A stretch of 64,000 nt of DNA, taken from positions 1,951,729-2,015,728 of the forward strand of contig BPGV01000001.1 in NCBI GenBank assembly GCA_026003215.1. Reading direction: 5' to 3'. A program made the translations under genes and the position numbers. Origin of the DNA: Bacteroidia bacterium. GTDB taxonomy: Bacteria > Bacteroidota > Bacteroidia > SpSt-205. Of the stretch, positions 441-18,215 are shown piece after piece (the stretch's first letter is position 1; each line of letters opens with the position of its first letter). Under the pieces are notes generated by a model. The model saw nothing but the letters and a program-made list of their open reading frames with translations. It was not told the DNA's origin and ran no database searches.

Positions 441-2230
441 CTATTTGCCAGGAGTGAGACAGAGCTTGGTGACAAAGACATCGTAGTTTCCATTATGCGA
501 TGTGTCGTAGGCGCCTGGGGTGGTGGGGAAGTCAGAGGAGCCTGTCCCGCCGGTGATGTAAGCGCAGCCGCTGCCATCTACAGCGATGGCGATGCCTTCA
601 TCTTTCTCCCTTCCCCCGAGGAAGGTAGAATAGAGGAGGGTGCTACCATCAGAGGAGAGCTTGGTGACAAAGGCGTTCCAGAATCCACCATTATGCGATG
701 AGTCGTAAGCGCCGGGGGTCGTGGGGAAATCGGTGGAGTCTGTGCTGCCGGTGATGTAAGCGCAGTCGCTCCCATCTATGGCGATGGCGGAGCCATGGTC
801 AAGCCTGCTTCCGCCGATGAGGGTGGAGTAGACGAGGTTATCGCCGTTGGGAGAGAGCTTGGTGACAAAGACATCGTCGCTTCCATTATGCGATGGGTCG
901 TAGGCGTTGGAGGTCGTGGGAAAGTCGGAGGATAATGTCGTGCCGGTGATATAAGCGCTACCGCTGGCATCTATGGCGATGGCGTAGCCCCCTTCAGCGC
1001 TACTACCGCCGAGGAAGGTGGAATAGAGGAGGGTGCTGCCATCGGGGGAGAGCTTGGTGACAAAGGCATCATGCGGGTAGGCCCCACCTCCATTATACGA
1101 TGTGTCGTAGGCGCCGGGGGTGGTGGGGAAGTCGGGGGAATATGTGGAGCCGGTGATGTAAGCGTAGCCGCTGGCATCTACGGCGATGGCGTAGCCCACA
1201 TCCGCCTGAATACCGCCGAGGAAGGTAGAATAGATGAGCGCATTGCCAGTGGGGGAGAGCTTGGTAACAAAGGCATCGTAGGGGCCATAGGAGGGGCCTC
1301 CACTGTGCGATAGGTCGTAGGCGCCGGGGGTGGTGGGGAAGTTGAGGGATTCTGTCCAGCCGGTGATGTAAGCGCAGCCGCTGGCATCTATGGCGATGGC
1401 TTGGGCCCCCTCCCCATTCCCACCGCCGAGGAAGGTGGAATAGATGAGCGCATTGCCAGTGGGGGAGAGCTTGGTAACAAAGGCATCAACTCCACTAAAT
1501 GATTGGTCGTAGGCGCTTGGGGTCGTGGGGAAATCGGTGGAGCCTGTCCCGCCGGTGATGTAAGCGTAGCCGCTGGCATCTACGGCGATGGCTTTGCCCA
1601 CATCCCCATGACTACCGCCGAGGAAGGTGGAATAGATGAGCGCATTGCCATCGGGGGAGAGCTTGGTGACAAAAACATCGGTGTGTCCGTTATGCGATGT
1701 GTCATAGGCGCCGGTGGTGGTGGGGAAGTCGGGGGATTTTGTCCAGCCTGTGATGTAAGCGCAGCCGCTGGCATCTACGGCGATGGCGGAGCCCCTATCG
1801 TCCCCACTTCCGCCAAGGAAGGTAGAATAGACGAGGGCATCGCCGCCAGGGGAGAGCTTGGTGACAAAGGCGTCTTCCCCTCCCCCATTATACGATGGGT
1901 CGTAGGCGCCGGGGGTGGTGGGGAAGTCGGGGGATTTTGTCACGCCTGTGATGTAAGCGCAGCCGCTGGCATCTACGACGATGGCGTGACCCTGATCCAG
2001 ATTACTACCGCCGAGGAAGGTGGAATAGACGAGGGTGCGCCCATCAGGGGAGAGCTTGATGACAAAGGCGTCCCAGGCTCCCCCATTATACGATGGGTCG
2101 TAGGCGCCGGGGGTGGTGGGGAAGTCGGGGGATTTTGTCCAGCCGGTGATGTAAGCGCAGCCGCTGGCATCTACGGCGATGTCGTAGACCTCATCCGTAT
2201 TCCTAACGCCGAGGAAAGTACTCCACACGA
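441..2230 (-). repeat. Nine tandem coding repeats of about 192-211 bp
   Basis: The motif GATGTAAGCG (+ strand) or a close variant recurs near 554, 753, 948, 1154, 1365, 1557, 1752, 1950 and 2148. Each unit encodes one SBBP repeat. The units are similar at DNA level, so recombination between them could change the copy number. Confidence 0.85.
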
Positions 2231-2999
2231 GCGGGTCTATGATGAGAGGCTGGGTGGGGTCATAGGCGCCTACGGCAATGCGGTAGGTGCTCCCCTCCGC
2301 TAAAAAACGGCTCTCCACGGGGTGCCCGCCCTGATAGGCATAGAGCTTGGTCAGCACCGCCTCGCCAAACCGCGTGCGGAAGGCCAAGGTCTGCCCTTCC
2401 TTTACATACACGGCCTCGGCGCCTTCCATGGAGAAACGGATCTGACTGGGGTCAGCCCCCGGCTGGACGATGAAGTCGAAGCGCGGCTGGCCGCCGTCAA
2501 AGTAGTACCGGAAGTCAATCCCGGGATAGACGTCCGAGAGGCGCACCTCAGCAAAGCGGGGCACATGGGCGGCATGACGGCTCGGGTCGTTGCCGATGAA
2601 ATAGTTGAAGAAGCCCGGCAGCTGGTGTAGGCCGGCAGGCTCAGCGTGGATGTTGGCGCCGAGGAGGCACAGGCGCACGACATGACCGTAGCGCACTTGG
2701 GGCTGGTGGTCTCGGCCGAGCTTGTCAGGCAGCGGTTCAGGGACTGGGAAGGCCTCAGGTACCTGGGGCTCCTGGTCTTTGAATTGAAAGAAATCCAGGA
2801 CGAGACCGTCTCTCGCGATCCAACAGTCGATGCCGCCGAGGCGAGCGAGGAAGAGGGCGTCCGGGTGCCACTGGCCTCGGTTTGGGATGAAGGCGAGGGC
2901 TTGGGATTTTTCTACCATTTTCTGCGTGGCGAGGCTTTGGGCCTCAAGCCAAAGACCTCCTACAAGGAAGGTTCCGATGAATAATTTTTGAAGCCTCAT
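441..2999 (-). CDS. Secreted SBBP-type beta-propeller repeat protein
   Basis: 852 residues from ATG 2999, chosen because TACCTTCG ends 8 nt upstream and a signal peptide follows directly (MRLQKLFIGTFLVGGLWLEAQ). Residues about 25-270 form a conserved N-terminal domain (FIPNRGQW, QVRYG, FNYFIGNDPS, VYPGIDF) typical of large Bacteroidota SBBP proteins. Residues about 270-850 are nine tandem repeats of about 66 residues with the signature AYITG..SPDFPTTPGAYD....G..DAFVTKLSPDG..LVYSTFLGG, a beta-propeller repeat (SBBP). No T9SS C-terminal domain is visible before the TAG stop, which is odd for such a protein. In frame after the TAG is a further 31-codon open stretch. Likely extracellular or outer-membrane-associated; substrate unknown. 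Confidence 0.85.
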   Translation of the reverse strand: MRLQKLFIGTFLVGGLWLEAQSLATQKMVEKSQALAFIPNRGQWHPDALFLARLGGIDCWIARDGLVLDFFQFKDQEPQVPEAFPVPEPLPDKLGRDHQPQVRYGHVVRLCLLGANIHAEPAGLHQLPGFFNYFIGNDPSRHAAHVPRFAEVRLSDVYPGIDFRYYFDGGQPRFDFIVQPGADPSQIRFSMEGAEAVYVKEGQTLAFRTRFGEAVLTKLYAYQGGHPVESRFLAEGSTYRIAVGAYDPTQPLIIDPLVWSTFLGVRNTDEVYDIAVDASGCAYITGWTKSPDFPTTPGAYDPSYNGGAWDAFVIKLSPDGRTLVYSTFLGGSNLDQGHAIVVDASGCAYITGVTKSPDFPTTPGAYDPSYNGGGEDAFVTKLSPGGDALVYSTFLGGSGDDRGSAIAVDASGCAYITGWTKSPDFPTTTGAYDTSHNGHTDVFVTKLSPDGNALIYSTFLGGSHGDVGKAIAVDASGYAYITGGTGSTDFPTTPSAYDQSFSGVDAFVTKLSPTGNALIYSTFLGGGNGEGAQAIAIDASGCAYITGWTESLNFPTTPGAYDLSHSGGPSYGPYDAFVTKLSPTGNALIYSTFLGGIQADVGYAIAVDASGYAYITGSTYSPDFPTTPGAYDTSYNGGGAYPHDAFVTKLSPDGSTLLYSTFLGGSSAEGGYAIAIDASGSAYITGTTLSSDFPTTSNAYDPSHNGSDDVFVTKLSPNGDNLVYSTLIGGSRLDHGSAIAIDGSDCAYITGSTDSTDFPTTPGAYDSSHNGGFWNAFVTKLSSDGSTLLYSTFLGGREKDEGIAIAVDGSGCAYITGGTGSSDFPTTPGAYDTSHNGNYDVFVTKLCLTPGK

Positions 3000-3007
3000 A
3001 GTGAGAA

Positions 3008-3015
3008 CGAAGGTA
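3008..3015 (-). promoter_or_regulatory. -7 element TACCTTCG for the propeller gene
   Basis: One mismatch from TAnnTTTG. It ends 8 nt before ATG 2999 and supports that start over upstream in-frame codons. Confidence 0.55.
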
Positions 3016-3047
3016 GGAGTTTTGCGCAAAAATCCAGCAAGAGAGGC

Positions 3048-3055
3048 TATCTTTG
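3048..3055 (+). promoter_or_regulatory. -7 element TATCTTTG for the lipoprotein gene
   Basis: Exact TAnnTTTG match ending 4 nt before ATG 3060, so the transcript should be leaderless or nearly so. Confidence 0.7.
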
Positions 3056-3059
3056 TGGC

Positions 3060-3629
3060 ATGTATAGGCTTTGGGTAGGGGTGAGTGTGCTTGTGTGGGC
3101 AGGGTGTCGGTCGGGGGGAGGGGTGGAGGCACTGCCGGCGGGCATAGCTGCACAAGCCAAAAGCAAAGACCCCTGTAAGGCGCTGCGGGAGGCGCTTCCC
3201 CCGCTAATGCCGCCTTTTCAGGTGCCCACAGGCCAATCTATTCCCGAGCCCTTCCCCATAGAAGCGCAAAACTGGCTCAAAAAGCGCTTCTCCGAGGTAG
3301 GGGTCTATACGCCAGTGGGCTGTTGGCGCGGGCCCGCCCCGCTGGAACTCTGGCTGATAGAAAGGCTTACCGCAGAAGGTACTTTTTACTATGCGGTACT
3401 GGTGGATTCCCTATGCGAGGTGCAGGATACGGCCCTCTGGGCCTATCAGTGGGTGCAGCCGGACCGGCTGGAGCAAGGGCGCGCCGAGGTAGATCGTTCG
3501 GGCACCTGCACTATCACCATAGAGAAGCATATTACCACCTTTGCGGGGGAGCAGCCGCAGACCACCACCACGACGGAACGGCGAGCCTATGCGGTGGATT
3601 GGACTGGTCGCAAGCTGCGCCCTTTATAG
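3060..3629 (+). CDS. Hypothetical lipoprotein
   Basis: 189 residues. The N-terminus MYRLWVGVSVLVWAGC is a lipoprotein signal with lipobox VWAGC, so the mature protein should be lipid-anchored from Cys16. The rest has no family I recognise: a Pro-rich stretch near 50-65, two further Cys (near 93 and 123), and a Thr-rich segment near 165 (QTTTTTERR). The start is set by TATCTTTG 4 nt upstream. The 3' end overlaps the next gene by 41 nt in another frame, suggesting translational coupling. Function unknown; envelope location is the only supported statement. Confidence 0.75.
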   Translation: MYRLWVGVSVLVWAGCRSGGGVEALPAGIAAQAKSKDPCKALREALPPLMPPFQVPTGQSIPEPFPIEAQNWLKKRFSEVGVYTPVGCWRGPAPLELWLIERLTAEGTFYYAVLVDSLCEVQDTALWAYQWVQPDRLEQGRAEVDRSGTCTITIEKHITTFAGEQPQTTTTTERRAYAVDWTGRKLRPL

Positions 3630-10567: not shown

Positions 10568-10724
10568 TGAGAAATACCCTGGTGCTTAGTGCTTCTACGG
10601 CTCAGGAGAAGCGGGCTACCTCCCAGACGGTATTTTGAACCTTTCAGGTGGAAAATGCGACGACTCGGGCGCAGTGTTCGTCTTTTTGCTTAAGAAGGGG
10701 CTTGGGAGATACAGGCTTGCCATA

Positions 10725-10732
10725 TACCTTTG
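10725..10732 (+). promoter_or_regulatory. -7 element TACCTTTG for the giant surface protein gene
   Basis: Exact TAnnTTTG ending 4 nt before ATG 10737. This decides the start over an in-frame upstream codon at 10635. Confidence 0.7.
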
Positions 10733-10736
10733 CTTC

Positions 10737-13700
10737 ATGCGAGGCTTAAAACTACTGGGCTTGCTGCTGGGGCTGGAGGTAGGCCTCTCATCGCTGTATG
10801 CTACGCACCTTATGGGGGGTGAGATTACCTACCAGTGCATCGGCCCTAATCAATATCGCATACGCGTAAAACTCTACCGCGACTGTGGAGGTATAGCATT
10901 GGAAAATCCTATTATTCTCTACTATTCTTCTGCGCAATGTAATGTAAATGCCTCTATTTCGTTGAACCGTCTCAGCGTTACAGACATTACCCCGGTGTGT
11001 CCGGGGGGGCAAAGTCGGTGTGGTGGTAGTGGCCCCTATGGCTGGGAAGAGCATGTCTATGAAGGTACGCTTACCCTGCCGCCCGGATGCTCGGACTGGA
11101 CTCTTTGGTATAGCAACTGTTGTAGAAATAGCGCTATCACCACCGGGCCGGCGGATGACTACTTTACCATTTATACCAACCTTAATAACACCGTAACCCC
11201 CTGCAATAACTCCCCCGTGTTCAATGTGCCGCCTACGGCTTTGGCGTGTGTGGGGCAGAGGACATGCCTCAATCCGGGGGTTACGGACCCCGATGGCGAC
11301 TCCTTGGCTTTTAGCTTGACCTATTGCCGGTCCTCTAATGCTTCCACCAGTGTAGGCTACTCGGGGGGATACAGCGGGACTAATCCGCTCCCTACCGGGG
11401 GAGGGACTACAGTGGACCCCCGAACAGGTACGGTATGCTTTACGCCCAGCGCGCAGGCGGTGGGTATTATTTGCATTCGGATAGAGGAGTTTCGGAATGG
11501 CGTAAAGATTGGCGAGTACCTGCGAGACATGCAGGTACGGGTCATTGCGTGCTCTAACCAGCTTCCGGTCGCTTCTGGGATAAATGGCGTGCCGTATAAT
11601 CCCAATGACCCTACTACCTATACCATAGAAGTCTGCGCCACCGGTACCAACTACTGTTTCAACTTGAACTTTTCCGACCCGGATGGTCAGCCGCTCACCG
11701 TCTCATGGAATAACGGTATCTCTGGGGCTTCCTTTGTGGTCAACAATAATGGGACCACTAATCCTACCGCTACTTTCTGCTGGACCCCTACCCCTGCGGA
11801 TATAGGTTCGCATACTTTTGTTGTCACGGTACAAGATAATGCTTGTCCTATCCGAGGGGTCAATAGCTATGGCTATGTGGTGAATGTAATCGGAGGGGTT
11901 TCGTATCCGGTGGATGCGGGTCCGGATGCGACTATTTGTCAGGGACAATCCGTTACTTTGAATGGTTCTGTGGCGGGGCCCCCAGGCGATATTGCCAGTA
12001 TCCAATGGTCTCCCGCGACAGGACTTAGTAATCCCAATATTTTGACGCCGGTGGCTTCGCCCACCTCTACGACGACCTATACGTTGGAAGTGACTTTTGT
12101 GGGGGGCTGCAAGCGCCGAGACCAAGTGACCGTGACGGTATTGCCGCCGCCGGCGCCGCCGACGGTTTCCCCGCCTTCGGCCCAAGTATGTACAGGTAGT
12201 AGCGTTTTACTTACAGCTTCCAGTCCAGGAGCCGTAGATTATGAGTGGCATGATGGCGCACCGAATGGGCCTATTGTGCAGAATGGGCCTACTTTTAATG
12301 CTTCGCCAGGAAGTAGTACGACCTATTATGTGGTAGCGGTGAGTGCGAATGGCTGCCGGTCGGCGCCGACGCCTGTGTCCGTAGCGGTCAATCCGCCGCC
12401 CCCGCCTGTTTCCTGTGTGGTCATCTATGTGACGCCGGGCGGCTGTGGCGGCGGTCCCGGCTGCGGTACCCGCGCAAACCCCGCCAATCTCCCCACCGCT
12501 ATCGCCATGGCCCAGTGTAATAACAGCTACCTCAAGCTGGCCTGCGGTACCTACAACATCGATAATTCAATCTCTTTTACCAGCAATACGACGGTGGAGG
12601 GCGGCTATGACCCCGCCACCTGGGATAAGACCAACGGCTGCCAGACCATCATCTACCGCACCCCAGCCAACGTCCAGCCCAACCCTAACCGACTCGTGGC
12701 TATAGAGCTAAACTCGGTGCGGTACTTCGCCATGTATGATGTGACGGTGCAGACCGCCGATGCGCCTAATCCCCCTATTGCCGGCGATTATCGGGGGGTC
12801 TCTACCTATGCCCTCTACATGGCGGGATGTCAAGATTATAAGTTTGTGCGGTGTGGGTTTATCTCAGGGAATGCTTCTAAGGGAGCCGACGGCCAACCAG
12901 GAAACCCCGGCCGAAATGCCGCCGCTTATCAGAATGGTCCTTTCTGCGGCCAATCAGGCGATCAAGATAACTGCGGCTGGGCAAATGGAAATGGCGGGGC
13001 GGGTGCTACTGTGCCTTGGGGAGCTAACGGCGGAAATGGCGGTAATGGCGGATATGACGGAGGATCAGGGAATAGTGGTCAACAAGCGCCCTGTGGCGGT
13101 AATGTCGTGTGTTCTGGAGGGGGAGGAGGGACTGGAGGAGGTGGCTGTGGTTCAGGCTTCGGTTGCGACTGTGATGGCGCTGGCAATCATGGTCAGCCGG
13201 GGCAAAATGGAGGAAATGGTAATCCTGGAGCGACTGGAACAGCCGGTTCGTCAGGAACAGCGGGAGTTTGGTGGCAGCCAGGTGGACAGGGGGGTACAGG
13301 CGGACAGGGACAGCATGGTAGAGGTGGTGGCGGGGGTGGTGGCGGCGGCGGACAATCAAATTTGATATGTGGTTGGCGTGGAACGGGAGCCGGAGGGGGT
13401 GGGGGGGGAGCTGGAGGAGAAGGCGGGTATGGTGGCACTGGTGGCTGGGGCGGTGGCAGCAGCTTCCCCATCTACCTCTACCAAAATGGTGGGGGCAGCC
13501 AGTTTATAGATTGTGGGTATAGTACGGGGGCGGCTGGGGCCGGAGGCATAGGCGGAGTGGGTGGGGCAGGAGGAGCAGGTAGCTTAGGAGCTGGACAAGG
13601 AGGCAGTCCCACAAGCTGCCCGCGGGACGGCTGTGATATAGGCTATGGGGGGCGAGGCGGCAATGGCGGCAATGGCGGCAGTGGCGGCAGTGGTGGCAAT

Positions 13701-16700
13701 GGCCAGTCCGGCATAGCTTATGCACTCTACGTGGTCAGCGGTACGCTGCCTTCAGTGGTCGTCGGAGGCACCCCCATCGCCATAGCGTTGGGCGGCAATA
13801 ACCCTACGCCCTACAACTTCGCGGCTGAGCCGATTATCCGCGTCTCTGGGTTTGCTTGCACCAATAAAGATTACACTCTCCAGGTCACCACTGGCGGCTT
13901 CAATCAGTGGACCTCGCTGGGGCCAGGCGCTACCGCCACCGTGCCGAATACGAATAACCCCATTACGTACCAATATACCACCGTTGGCCGCAAGACCATC
14001 GTCGTGCGGGTAGGGGGGGTGGATTATACCTTCACGGAGTTTATCGGGATACTACTGCCTGATAACCAGCGCCCGAACGTGACCGCTAATCCGGTCGGGC
14101 CTATCTGTCAGGGAGAAGTAGCTACTTTCACCGGGGACTTAGCGGGGGTTCAATACCAGTGGGAACAGTATCCTCCCGCTGGCCCGGTGGTAAATGGCCC
14201 TAATGCGCAAAGCTGGCAAATAGCCTTTACGCAGCCAGGCATCCATACCATTCGTCATCGGGTATATACCGACTGCTGTGGATGGACCCCGTGGGATTCT
14301 GTGACGATGGAGGTGTACCCGCAGGCGACAGTGAGTGTGGCCCCTGCTGCCCCGGCTATTTGCTATGGCGATCAGGTCACGCTCACCGCTACTTTTGCGC
14401 CGGCGGGTTCTACTATCTTATGGTCGCCAGCGAATGGCCTGAATACCACCACGGGCGCGACGGTGGTAGCTTCCCCGACCAGTACGACGACCTATACAGC
14501 GCTGGTGGTGCCTCCCGTGGGCTCGTGTGTGGCCACAGCGAATGTCACCGTCACGGTGAATCCGCTCCCAGACGCCACAGCAGCGGTGACTCCTGCGAGC
14601 TGCGGCAATAACGGGAGTGTTACCCTCACTATCACCGCCGGGGCCCCTCCAGTAAATGTAGTCTGGAATACCACTCCCCCTCAAACCGGCCTCACAGCCA
14701 CCAACCTTCAGCCGGGCATTTATCAGGCTACCCTCACGGATGCTAACGGCTGCGTAAATACCGTATCTGTATTTGTGCCTGCGCCGCCGGGAGCGCTTTT
14801 AGCCTGGCTGCAATCCTCCCAAGAGCCTTCCTGCTTTGGCCAAAGTAACGGTTCGGCGACCATAGGCGTGACAGGCGGAACGCCGCCATACACCTATACT
14901 TGGTCGCATAACCCCGCCCTCAACGCCCCCACAGCTACGGGGCTCAGTGCCGGTAGTTATACGGTGGTAGTCACGGATGGCGCGGGATGTACTTTTACGG
15001 TGCCCTTTGCCTTAGGGCAGCCTGCGCCGCTCACCATAGCGCTGGACTCGCTCCGCCAAAATGAACCCGTAAGCTGCTCCGGCGCGTGTAATGGCGTCAT
15101 TACCGTGGAGGCCGACGGAGGGACGCAGCCACGGACCTATACATGGAGTAGCTCTACCTATCCGGGTTTTTCCTTTTCGGGGGTAGATGCGGCAGGTACC
15201 CAGGTGACCGGCCTTTGCGAGGGCGAATACACTATCACTGTCACGGACGCAAATGGGTGTACAGCGTCTATTACGGTGCAGCTGGGGGTTACCCCACTCA
15301 ACTACACTTTGAGCAAAACCGATGCGCTCTGCTATGGAGCTCCGCAAGGGTCTGTATCCGTCACTATCATCACTGCGCATTCGGGCACGAGCTGGGTATG
15401 GACGGGGCCCCTTGGCTACACTTCTGCGCCTAATGAAACCAATCCCACAAACCTTGTGCCGGGATGGTATTATATTCACTTCACTATCCCTGGATGCCCG
15501 GGGACAGTCACGGACTCCATATATGTGGACTCTCCGCCTGATATAACACTCTCTGTCACCCATACGGAACCGCTCTGCAATGGTGACGCCAATGGTTCCA
15601 TCACCGTCGTAGCGAGTGGGGGGGTAGGCGGCTTCCAATACAATATCAACGGTGGGCCATGGGGCGCAGCTAATACCTTCACGGGCCTGACTGCGGGTAC
15701 CTATACCCTCGGCGTACAGGATGCTAACGGATGCCAGAAGTATGTAACTTATGTGCTCCCTGAACCGGCGGCTTTGGCCCTGGATCCACCTACAGTGACA
15801 AATGTGCGGTGTAATGGGGGTTCAGATGGGAGCATAACGGTGAATGTAGTGGCGGGTAGCGGTACAGCGCCATATGAGTATAGTTTGAACGGCGGGCCGT
15901 ATCAGTCTTCGGCCACCTTTACGGGGTTGAGTGCTGGGAGTTACACGGTGACGGTACGGGATGCGAATGGGTGTACGATAAGTCAGACTGTGACGGTGGG
16001 TCAGCCTACGGCGTTGGCGTTGAATGCGCCTACGGTGGTGGATGTTCGCTGCAATGGGGGGTCGGATGGGAGTATAACGGTGAATGTAGTGGCTGGTAGC
16101 GGTACGGCGCCGTACGAGTATAGTTTGAACGGCGGACCGTATCAAGCGTCGGCTACCTTTACAGGCCTGAGTGCGGGAAGTTATACGGTGACGGTACGGG
16201 ATGCGAATGGGTGTACGATAAGCCAGACAGTGACGGTGGGGCAGCCAGCGACGGCATTAGCGTTAGATCCGCCTACGGTGGTGGATGTTCGCTGCAATGG
16301 GGGCTCGGATGGGAGCATAACGGTGAATGTGGTGGCTGGTAGCGGCACGGCGCCGTACGAGTATAGTTTGAACGGCGGGCCGTATCAAGCATCGCCAACC
16401 TTTACGGGGTTGAGTGCGGGAAGTTATACGGTGACGGTACGGGATGCGAATGGTTGTACGATAAGTCAGGTAGTGACGGTGGGTCAGCCTACGGCGTTGG
16501 CGTTGAATGCGCCTACGGTGGTGGATGTTCGCTGCAATGGGGGCTCGGATGGGAGCATAACGGTGAATGTGGTGGCTGGTAGCGGCACGGCGCCGTATGA
16601 GTATAGTTTGAACGGGGGGCCGTACCAAGCATCGCCAACCTTTACGGGGTTGAGTGCGGGAAGTTATACGGTGACGGTACGGGATGCGAATGGTTGTACG

Positions 16701-18215
16701 ATAAGTCAGGTAGTGACGGTGGGTCAGCCTACGGCGTTGGCGTTGAATGCGCCTACGGTGGTGGATGTTCGCTGCAATGGGGGTTCGGATGGGAGCATAA
16801 CGGTGAATGTGGTAGCTGGTAGTGGTACGGCTCCGTATGAGTATAGTTTGAATGGCGGGCCGTATCAAGCGTCGGCTACCTTTACGGGGTTGAGTGCTGG
16901 GAGTTACACGGTGACGGTACGGGATGCGAATGGTTGTACGATAAGCCAGACTGTGACGGTTGGTCAGCCGGCGGCGCCGGTGAGTTTTACTTTCACGGTG
17001 ACGAATGCCCCGTGCTATGGAGGTCTTGGTACGATAGTGTTTTCTGCGAGTGGGGGGGTAGGTGGATATGAATATGGAGTGGATGGGGTGTATGGGTCTA
17101 ATGCGACGGTGTCTGTGCCGGCGGGTACTTATGTGCTAACGGTGCGAGATGCGAATGGATGTGTAGCGGGTGCGCAGACGGCGGTGGTAGGGCAACCGCA
17201 ACCTGTGGTAGGGAGTGTGGCGAGTTTGACGGTGGCGACGTGTCGGGAGTCGTCGGATGGGGGTGTGGTGCTTACGGCGCAGGGGGGTACGAGTGCGAGT
17301 GGGAGCTATACTTATGTGTGGGTGAGTCATCCGCAGTACAGTGGGGCGAATGTGAGTGGTTTAGCGCCGGGGTCGTATGAGGTGGTGGTGCGTGACGATA
17401 ATGGGTGTGAGGACACGATACGGTTTAGTGTGCCGTATCGGAGCTATGTGGATGCGGCGTTGCAGCCGGTGGATGTGAGTGGGTGTGTGCCGCTTGGGGG
17501 TAGTTGGGTAGCGCTACCGAGTGGGGTAGGCCCGTACAGCTATGAGTGGGATATGGGGGATGGGACGGTGGTAAGGGATTCGGTGGTGGAGCATGTGTAT
17601 GCGATGCAGGGGAGTTACAGCATTCGGTTGATAGTTCGGAATGGGGATGGGTGTGCGGATACGGCGTATGGGGTAGCGCAGGCGTACTTTACGCCGGTGG
17701 CGAGCTATACGATAGATCCGGATACGAGTGTGGATAGGGTAGTAGGGACGGTATTTACGCTGACGAGCACGACGCAGAATGCGCAGCGGGTATGGTGGGG
17801 TATAGAAGGGTATGGGGTGCATGAGGGGCCGGTATGGCAGGTGCGTTTTGATAGGCCTGGGCGGTATTGTTTCAAGGTGTGGGCGCAGAATGGGAGTTGT
17901 GTAGATTCGGCGAGTGGGTGTATAGAGGTGAAGGACCCGTATGTGTATTTACCGAATGCGTTTTCGCCGAATGGGGATGGGGTGAATGATGTATTTGAGA
18001 TAAAGGCGTTTGGGCTGAAGGAGCCGCGGGTGCGGATATATGATCGGTGGGGTGTGCTGGTGTTTGATAATGGGGGGGACATGAGTCGGCACTGGGATGG
18101 GACTTATCGGGGTTCTCCTGTGCCGGAGGATGCGTACACGGTGGTGATAGAAGGGAAGCTCCCGCCCTTTGATAAGCCTATAAAACGCAGTGGGACTGTC
18201 ACGGTCGTCCGATAA
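10737..18215 (+). CDS. Giant T9SS surface protein: beta-helix with Gly-rich inserts, SprB-type repeats, CHU_C tail
   Basis: 2492 residues from ATG 10737. Signal peptide about 1-22, then the ATHLMGGEITYQCIG opening common to Bacteroidota giant surface proteins. Order: N-terminal domain with cadherin-like DPDGDSLAF segment (to about 390); two Ig-like modules (about 390-555); a right-handed beta-helix-like region (about 560-1010) interrupted by two Gly-rich inserts; more Ig-like modules; SprB-type repeats (about 1280-2080) ending in five near-identical 80-residue units; a PKD-like module (YEWDMGDGTV); and the CHU_C C-terminal domain (NAFSPNGDGVND, VRIYDRWG, WDGTYRG). The C-terminal domain should direct secretion by the type IX system, with surface display like SprB adhesins. 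Base composition changes sharply near 15790. Confidence 0.92.
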   Translation: MRGLKLLGLLLGLEVGLSSLYATHLMGGEITYQCIGPNQYRIRVKLYRDCGGIALENPIILYYSSAQCNVNASISLNRLSVTDITPVCPGGQSRCGGSGPYGWEEHVYEGTLTLPPGCSDWTLWYSNCCRNSAITTGPADDYFTIYTNLNNTVTPCNNSPVFNVPPTALACVGQRTCLNPGVTDPDGDSLAFSLTYCRSSNASTSVGYSGGYSGTNPLPTGGGTTVDPRTGTVCFTPSAQAVGIICIRIEEFRNGVKIGEYLRDMQVRVIACSNQLPVASGINGVPYNPNDPTTYTIEVCATGTNYCFNLNFSDPDGQPLTVSWNNGISGASFVVNNNGTTNPTATFCWTPTPADIGSHTFVVTVQDNACPIRGVNSYGYVVNVIGGVSYPVDAGPDATICQGQSVTLNGSVAGPPGDIASIQWSPATGLSNPNILTPVASPTSTTTYTLEVTFVGGCKRRDQVTVTVLPPPAPPTVSPPSAQVCTGSSVLLTASSPGAVDYEWHDGAPNGPIVQNGPTFNASPGSSTTYYVVAVSANGCRSAPTPVSVAVNPPPPPVSCVVIYVTPGGCGGGPGCGTRANPANLPTAIAMAQCNNSYLKLACGTYNIDNSISFTSNTTVEGGYDPATWDKTNGCQTIIYRTPANVQPNPNRLVAIELNSVRYFAMYDVTVQTADAPNPPIAGDYRGVSTYALYMAGCQDYKFVRCGFISGNASKGADGQPGNPGRNAAAYQNGPFCGQSGDQDNCGWANGNGGAGATVPWGANGGNGGNGGYDGGSGNSGQQAPCGGNVVCSGGGGGTGGGGCGSGFGCDCDGAGNHGQPGQNGGNGNPGATGTAGSSGTAGVWWQPGGQGGTGGQGQHGRGGGGGGGGGGQSNLICGWRGTGAGGGGGGAGGEGGYGGTGGWGGGSSFPIYLYQNGGGSQFIDCGYSTGAAGAGGIGGVGGAGGAGSLGAGQGGSPTSCPRDGCDIGYGGRGGNGGNGGSGGSGGNGQSGIAYALYVVSGTLPSVVVGGTPIAIALGGNNPTPYNFAAEPIIRVSGFACTNKDYTLQVTTGGFNQWTSLGPGATATVPNTNNPITYQYTTVGRKTIVVRVGGVDYTFTEFIGILLPDNQRPNVTANPVGPICQGEVATFTGDLAGVQYQWEQYPPAGPVVNGPNAQSWQIAFTQPGIHTIRHRVYTDCCGWTPWDSVTMEVYPQATVSVAPAAPAICYGDQVTLTATFAPAGSTILWSPANGLNTTTGATVVASPTSTTTYTALVVPPVGSCVATANVTVTVNPLPDATAAVTPASCGNNGSVTLTITAGAPPVNVVWNTTPPQTGLTATNLQPGIYQATLTDANGCVNTVSVFVPAPPGALLAWLQSSQEPSCFGQSNGSATIGVTGGTPPYTYTWSHNPALNAPTATGLSAGSYTVVVTDGAGCTFTVPFALGQPAPLTIALDSLRQNEPVSCSGACNGVITVEADGGTQPRTYTWSSSTYPGFSFSGVDAAGTQVTGLCEGEYTITVTDANGCTASITVQLGVTPLNYTLSKTDALCYGAPQGSVSVTIITAHSGTSWVWTGPLGYTSAPNETNPTNLVPGWYYIHFTIPGCPGTVTDSIYVDSPPDITLSVTHTEPLCNGDANGSITVVASGGVGGFQYNINGGPWGAANTFTGLTAGTYTLGVQDANGCQKYVTYVLPEPAALALDPPTVTNVRCNGGSDGSITVNVVAGSGTAPYEYSLNGGPYQSSATFTGLSAGSYTVTVRDANGCTISQTVTVGQPTALALNAPTVVDVRCNGGSDGSITVNVVAGSGTAPYEYSLNGGPYQASATFTGLSAGSYTVTVRDANGCTISQTVTVGQPATALALDPPTVVDVRCNGGSDGSITVNVVAGSGTAPYEYSLNGGPYQASPTFTGLSAGSYTVTVRDANGCTISQVVTVGQPTALALNAPTVVDVRCNGGSDGSITVNVVAGSGTAPYEYSLNGGPYQASPTFTGLSAGSYTVTVRDANGCTISQVVTVGQPTALALNAPTVVDVRCNGGSDGSITVNVVAGSGTAPYEYSLNGGPYQASATFTGLSAGSYTVTVRDANGCTISQTVTVGQPAAPVSFTFTVTNAPCYGGLGTIVFSASGGVGGYEYGVDGVYGSNATVSVPAGTYVLTVRDANGCVAGAQTAVVGQPQPVVGSVASLTVATCRESSDGGVVLTAQGGTSASGSYTYVWVSHPQYSGANVSGLAPGSYEVVVRDDNGCEDTIRFSVPYRSYVDAALQPVDVSGCVPLGGSWVALPSGVGPYSYEWDMGDGTVVRDSVVEHVYAMQGSYSIRLIVRNGDGCADTAYGVAQAYFTPVASYTIDPDTSVDRVVGTVFTLTSTTQNAQRVWWGIEGYGVHEGPVWQVRFDRPGRYCFKVWAQNGSCVDSASGCIEVKDPYVYLPNAFSPNGDGVNDVFEIKAFGLKEPRVRIYDRWGVLVFDNGGDMSRHWDGTYRGSPVPEDAYTVVIEGKLPPFDKPIKRSGTVTVVR
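12880..13710 (+). repeat. Glycine-rich low-complexity coding region (GGN/GGS/GGA)
   Basis: About 275 codons in two blocks (roughly 12880-13460 and 13515-13700), separated by a beta-helix-like rung (FPIYLYQNGGG, FIDCGY). Glycine exceeds half of the residues, often in triplets GGN, GGS or GGA, as in polyglycine-II bundles or PE_PGRS proteins. The long G-runs make this region prone to slippage and assembly error. Confidence 0.85.
15780..16980 (+). repeat. Five tandem 240-bp SprB-type repeats
   Basis: The segment CCTACGGTGGTGGATG or its variant recurs near 15789, 16029, 16272, 16512 and 16752, giving spacings of 240, 243, 240 and 240. Each unit encodes 80 residues (RCNGGSDGSITVNVV, GPYQASATFTGLSAGSYT, VTVRDANGCTISQ). 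Units 3 and 4 are almost identical at DNA level, so recent duplication or conversion is likely. Confidence 0.92.

Follow-up and report, generated by a model that had tools for sequence, protein, structure and literature searches.

The window analysed here, a 64,000-nucleotide stretch of Bacteroidia DNA, encodes a large surface protein of the type IX secretion system (T9SS) containing a conserved domain of 457 residues (12414-13784, + strand), organised as a core, insert 1, rung 2, insert 2 and rung 3. Based on sequence patterns and on analogy with a phage fibre tip, we assign a probability of roughly 0.6 to the reading that this ~460-residue domain combines a beta-helix with a polyglycine-II (PGII) sandwich and acts as an exchangeable recognition or adhesion head displayed by the T9SS. 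Under this reading, two consecutive coils of a right-handed beta-helix would each send out a long Gly-rich insert, and both inserts would lie next to each other and together form a single bundle of PGII helices in several layers. Poly-G ladders would be buried in the centre of the slab, with GGX ladders on its faces and GXX ladders at its edges, and variable, often Cys-containing loops would join the helices at the slab ends. The T9SS would bring the protein to the cell surface, where its C-terminus would hold it, and the rigid head would lie at its free N-terminal end or close to it. Binding may then occur through the loops, the partner being a glycan, a protein or another cell. Finally, the module can be swapped by recombination between paralogs, which would change the specificity while the stalk and anchor are kept.

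Host gene and domain layout

The host ORF spans 10635-18215 on the + strand. Its likely start is the ATG at 10737, followed by a signal-peptide-like N-terminus, MRGLKLLGLLLGLEVGLSSLYA, yielding a gene (10737-18215) for a protein of approximately 2492 residues. Residue numbers given below were counted from the ORF start at 10635; subtracting 34 provides the numbering from the ATG at 10737. The protein contains PKD/Ig_7 domains, SprB repeats and a type B C-terminal sorting domain (17949-18152, + strand; CHU_C PF13585, TIGR04131). The genome encodes SprA, part of the T9SS core (2231 bits), and holds 17 type B sorting domains. Based on its sorting domain and the presence of SprA, the window protein is T9SS cargo. 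Type B sorting domains were also found in the paralogs at 568771 and 1888527 and just downstream of that at 2255779, while L048 has a type A sorting domain and L047 a borderline one (22.7 versus a cut-off of 23). The SprB repeats and type B sorting domain are common to the SprB-type T9SS surface proteins of Bacteroidota; compared with these, the beta-helix/Gly domain is an extra, unnamed module. Four relatives scanned along their entire length had no SprB match and contained PKD or Ig repeats instead. At the DNA level, the SprB-type repeat of the window gene is a 240-bp unit present in 4.9 copies that are 91% alike (15802-16976). The window also encodes a second large repeat protein on the − strand (441-3152), with DUF7948 and SBBP beta-propeller repeats coded by 198-bp tandem repeats.

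The beta-helix-like core (12414-12869, + strand), IYVTP...EGGYDPATW...RLV...STYALYMAGCQDYKFVRC, ends in rung 1, STYALYMAGCQDYKFVRCGFISG, a 23-residue segment (12801-12869, + strand) directly 5' of insert 1. Insert 1 (12870-13460, + strand) comprises 197 residues in which Gly ladders are separated by variable loops containing Cys and aromatic residues. It is followed by rung 2, SFPIYLYQNGGGSQFIDCGYSTG, also of 23 residues (13461-13529, + strand), and by insert 2 (13530-13715, + strand; 62 residues, 48% Gly, 2 Cys), whose two ladders are separated by a Cys-containing loop. At rung 3 (13716-13784, + strand), the helix resumes with AYALYVV at 13716, AYALYVVSGTLPSVV... By the boundaries of a sequence-only reading of the same DNA, insert 1 lies at 12870-13463 (198 residues, 44% Gly, 8 Cys) and rung 2, FPIYLYQNGGGSQFIDCGYSTG, at 13464-13529; the insert has 197 residues when the S preceding FPIYLY is assigned to rung 2. 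That reading had described two Gly-rich inserts that follow similar rungs, after which the helix resumes, and this was confirmed, with inserts of ~197 and 62 residues and equivalent 23-residue rungs. It had also described the inserts as GGN/GGS/GGA triplets with a few Cys. These triplets, however, are not the sole types: conserved GXX ladders and poly-G runs are equally prominent.

The same reading had named a lack of homologous rungs around the inserts as grounds for doubt. This was not borne out, as the 23-residue rungs flanking inserts 1 and 2 aligned best in register among 17 offsets. Only 4 of 2000 column permutations yielded an alignment as good, or 67 of 2000 when the last five columns were left out. 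From this rung pattern, and from weak matches of the core to generic beta-helix-like proteins, we infer a right-handed beta-helix core; the domain had no Pfam beta-helix match.

Glycine periodicity and ladders of the inserts

A polyglycine-II helix has three residues per turn, and Gly at every third position lets such helices pack. In the window domain, Gly-Gly pairs were enriched at lag 3 relative to composition shuffles, with z-scores of 5.97 for insert 1 and 4.75 for insert 2 and no excess at lags 1, 2, 4 or 5. Similarly, the mean Gly-Gly z-score over 74 inserts was 5.7 at lag 3, 3.8 at lag 6 and 2.2 at lag 9, and all other lags up to 9 were at or below chance.

Alignment of 68 domains revealed conserved Gly ladders of GGX, GXX and poly-G type, up to 8 triplets long, alternating with loops that hold the large indels. 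The ladders span residues 750-765, 799-805, 809-818, 829-835, 853-871, 886-905 and 918-940 in insert 1 and residues 970-985 and 1003-1026 in insert 2. Ladder 853-871 (13191-13247, + strand) is a GXX ladder with seven conserved Gly at every third position. Ladder 886-905 (13290-13349, + strand) runs from GXX into conserved poly-G and is proposed to be a buried helix, and ladder 918-940 (13386-13454, + strand), poly-G followed by GGX, adjoins rung 2. Across the 68 domains, poly-G is kept at about residues 897-905 and just past 918, and GGX is kept in the ladder preceding rung 2 and where insert 2 ends. Large, widely shared insertions occur at residues 777, 795, 809, 819, 842, 847, 912 and 991, that is, between ladders or at their edges; the few small insertions inside ladders are each limited to one to five sequences. 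In PGII motifs, one side stays exposed with GGX and no side with GGG (motif table, PMC13243192). The types of ladder present therefore suggest that the slab is layered and that its poly-G helices are buried.

Period-3 Gly and GXX ladders would also suit a collagen-like triple helix formed between chains. Nevertheless, many of the ladders are GGX or poly-G, they are short, interrupted and out of phase, and both ends of each insert are tied to rungs of a single chain. Moreover, there was neither a Pfam collagen match nor a long uninterrupted GXY stretch, and we consider a collagen-like arrangement very improbable. Taken together, the period-3 Gly, conserved ladders and loop-borne indels are the sequence signature of a putative PGII sandwich. 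The earlier proposal of PGII packing beside the helix is accordingly well supported as far as sequence goes, whereas the fold itself is what we infer from these features.

A recent origin of the inserts by DNA repeat slippage was considered and rejected. All four Gly codons are used in the inserts, in mixed order, and synonymous change is close to saturation whereas the encoded insert sequence is preserved, which makes such slippage unlikely.

Distribution, conservation and module exchange

With the core as query, seven copies of the domain were found in the window's genome (2.27 Mb, one contig), and every paralog readable through both inserts had the layout of the window domain. All 12 genomes sampled from the host's taxonomic family also contain the core, the match in genome G297 being partial only. 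Close relatives of the host are the MAGs SKYB116 and KatS3mg026, both named 'Bacteroidia bacterium'. A full-length domain profile, based on 37 sequences and 462 positions covering the core and both inserts, had matches in 78 of the 395 class genomes sampled; these 78 belong to 37 of 197 genera. The search for the rung-plus-insert pattern in other Bacteroidota proteins, which the sequence-only reading had proposed, was thus successful both among the seven paralogs of the genome itself and class-wide. E-values were below 1e-28 in 72 class genomes, 61 of them outside the host's family, a count that leaves out five weak matches and the partial match in G297. Outside the host's family, E-values reached about 1e-135, and most of the matches listed were full length. 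A search with the N-terminal core had indicated that the domain family was confined to the host's taxonomic family; the class-wide matches of the full-length profile overturned this. A phylum-wide sample of 395 genomes yielded only the host and one distant relative. The class-wide sample holds many more families than the phylum-wide samples, and the difference between the counts indicates that prevalence depends on sampling.

Both inserts, rung 2 and the motifs of the core recur in the class-wide relatives that we read, which shows that the family match does not reflect composition alone. Every complete relative examined has both inserts. These proteins usually open with a signal-peptide-like stretch, with the domain starting within ~25-70 residues of the ORF start and PKD/Ig repeats and then a sorting domain lying further 3'. 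No Pfam family covered the domain in any of the 37 members, PHROGs contained no match, a PDB sequence search using the family profile returned no meaningful match, and no relatives were found in phage records or viral contigs. Two or three domain paralogs often lie in tandem or close together (L122, L123, L124, L127 and L128), and no recurring non-paralogous neighbour gene was seen by eye in five gene arrays. L130 (G190:C35), a distant relative from another family of the class, has pentapeptide-like repeats followed by a GGY-containing core and the same poly-G/GGX pattern, which suggests a wider superfamily.

Among orthologs, the inserts are stable. In ortholog pairs with at least 75% core identity, the gap fraction of the aligned inserts was 0.01. 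The length of insert 1 was 231 residues in most of one group and 212 and 206 residues in most of two others. The comparison of synonymous and nonsynonymous change covered the three pairs that passed its filter, namely one paralog pair and two close ortholog pairs. For the inserts of the ortholog pairs, pS was 0.58-0.73 versus a pN of 0.10-0.15, and nonsynonymous change in insert 1 was close to that of the core. Based on their fixed lengths in orthologs and on Gly at every third residue, the inserts are not drifting low-complexity sequence.

These data also bear on the possibility that the inserts are disordered, Gly-rich low-complexity linkers within the beta-helix, with a flexible or adhesive-glue behaviour. 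A Gly content of 44-48% and AlphaFold2 pLDDT values below 50 fit such linkers. Yet the mean pLDDT, 28 and 30 for alignments of 4 and 3 rows, was equally low on every part of the segment, including outside the inserts, and so neither supports nor refutes ordered inserts. The indel-free orthologs, the class-wide period-3 ladders and the core-like nonsynonymous change in insert 1 argue against disorder, which we regard as improbable.

Two reciprocal exchanges of the module were observed, the only such events seen. In the KatS3mg026 ortholog of the window gene, the flanks are of the window type (about 80-90% identity on both sides) and the module is of the L047 type: across inserts 1 and 2, identity is mostly 67-97% to the L047 type versus about 38-62% to the window type. 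Conversely, in L056 a window-type module sits between flanks of the L047 type; L056 is a mosaic because its C-terminus is also of the window type. The breakpoints lie near rungs 1 and 3. Since any contiguous recombination is expected to transfer both inserts jointly, the informative part is that the boundaries match the domain. As read from the sequences, the reciprocal swaps between two paralogs support a single exchangeable unit.

Some copies contain frame changes. The paralog near 2255779 (L007/L051) is frameshifted within insert 1, at a stretch of 13 consecutive G. A change of frame within insert 1 also occurs in L046/L069, the KatS3mg026 ortholog of the window gene, and the neighbouring paralog L005 changes frame downstream of the domain. 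These could reflect phase variation, decay or sequencing error.

The conservation pattern is relevant to function as well. A PGII sandwich might have a mechanical or protective role, serving as a rigid cap or spacer that resists proteases and heat, rather than binding a ligand. The ladders are indeed better conserved than the loops, insert lengths are fixed within orthologs, and the host lineage, as we assume from its MAG series, is probably thermal. Against this, the loops differ strongly among paralogs and the module is swapped, both of which suit a changing specificity, and equivalent loops bind the receptor in phage gp38. We therefore consider a purely mechanical role rather unlikely and favour a recognition or adhesion head.

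Comparison with known polyglycine systems

Polyglycine-II lattices are rare among solved structures. The present domain, which lacks a Pfam entry, occurs in some 30 or more of the genera sampled and is multi-copy within genomes; if our reading is true, PGII would be a common bacterial surface architecture. The family would also offer a deep natural alignment from which to derive how sequence governs PGII packing, together with a testable model in which T9SS proteins change specificity by exchanging the module.

The solved Gly-rich PPII/PGII bundles cited in PMC13243192 include the Gly-rich domain of ALK/LTK and the snow-flea antifreeze protein. Both are animal proteins, and the domain profile did not match them in the PDB search; indeed, neither this search nor profile comparison found sequence homology to any solved PGII protein. 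In mycobacterial PE_PGRS proteins, the PGRS domains are predicted to form surface PGII sandwiches (PMC9436101). They resemble the window domain in their Gly-rich triplets, bacterial surface location and predicted fold. As compared by description, PGRS domains are reported to tolerate large indels (PMC9436101), whereas the orthologs studied here are indel-free. Likewise, an insertion of PGRS domains in a beta-helix is not described in PMC9436101, while the window inserts lie in a beta-helix-like domain. The window protein had no Pfam match to the PE domain.

To our knowledge, the plan of gp38, a beta-helix bearing a PGII sandwich, is known from phages only. In gp38 of phage S16 (PDB 6F45), two beta-helix turns form a PGII sandwich with receptor-binding loops (PMC6851490), and in PP01 gp38, cross-links formed between such loops and the receptor OmpC (PMC12892980). 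The window domain appears to share this plan, at the level of sequence: two Gly-rich excursions from beta-helix turns, with Gly-rich motifs that include poly-G and variable segments between them. The excursions differ in size: in gp38 they are 18 and 77 residues long and have short motifs, whereas those of the window domain are about 197 and 62 residues long and their ladders reach 8 triplets. These ladders are much longer than the gp38 helices and may include turns not visible in sequence. Lag-3 periodicity of Gly is weak in gp38 (z 1.1), which makes gp38 an analogue in plan but not in sequence. Neither profile comparison (hhalign probability of 0.1%) nor the PDB search found homology of the domain family to gp38, and we accordingly describe the domain as probably working like gp38 rather than classing it as a member.

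Putative ligand binding by the loops, and with it a role as an adhesin, is suggested by the analogy with gp38 in combination with the signals for T9SS export and the swapped modules. The two systems differ in setting, gp38 being a phage fibre tip and the window protein a bacterial T9SS protein. We tentatively extend the comparison, with less confidence than the reading of the domain itself: many Bacteroidia may carry an unnamed PGII-sandwich head, a bacterial counterpart of the gp38 tip, in T9SS multi-gene families whose specificity is switched by module recombination.
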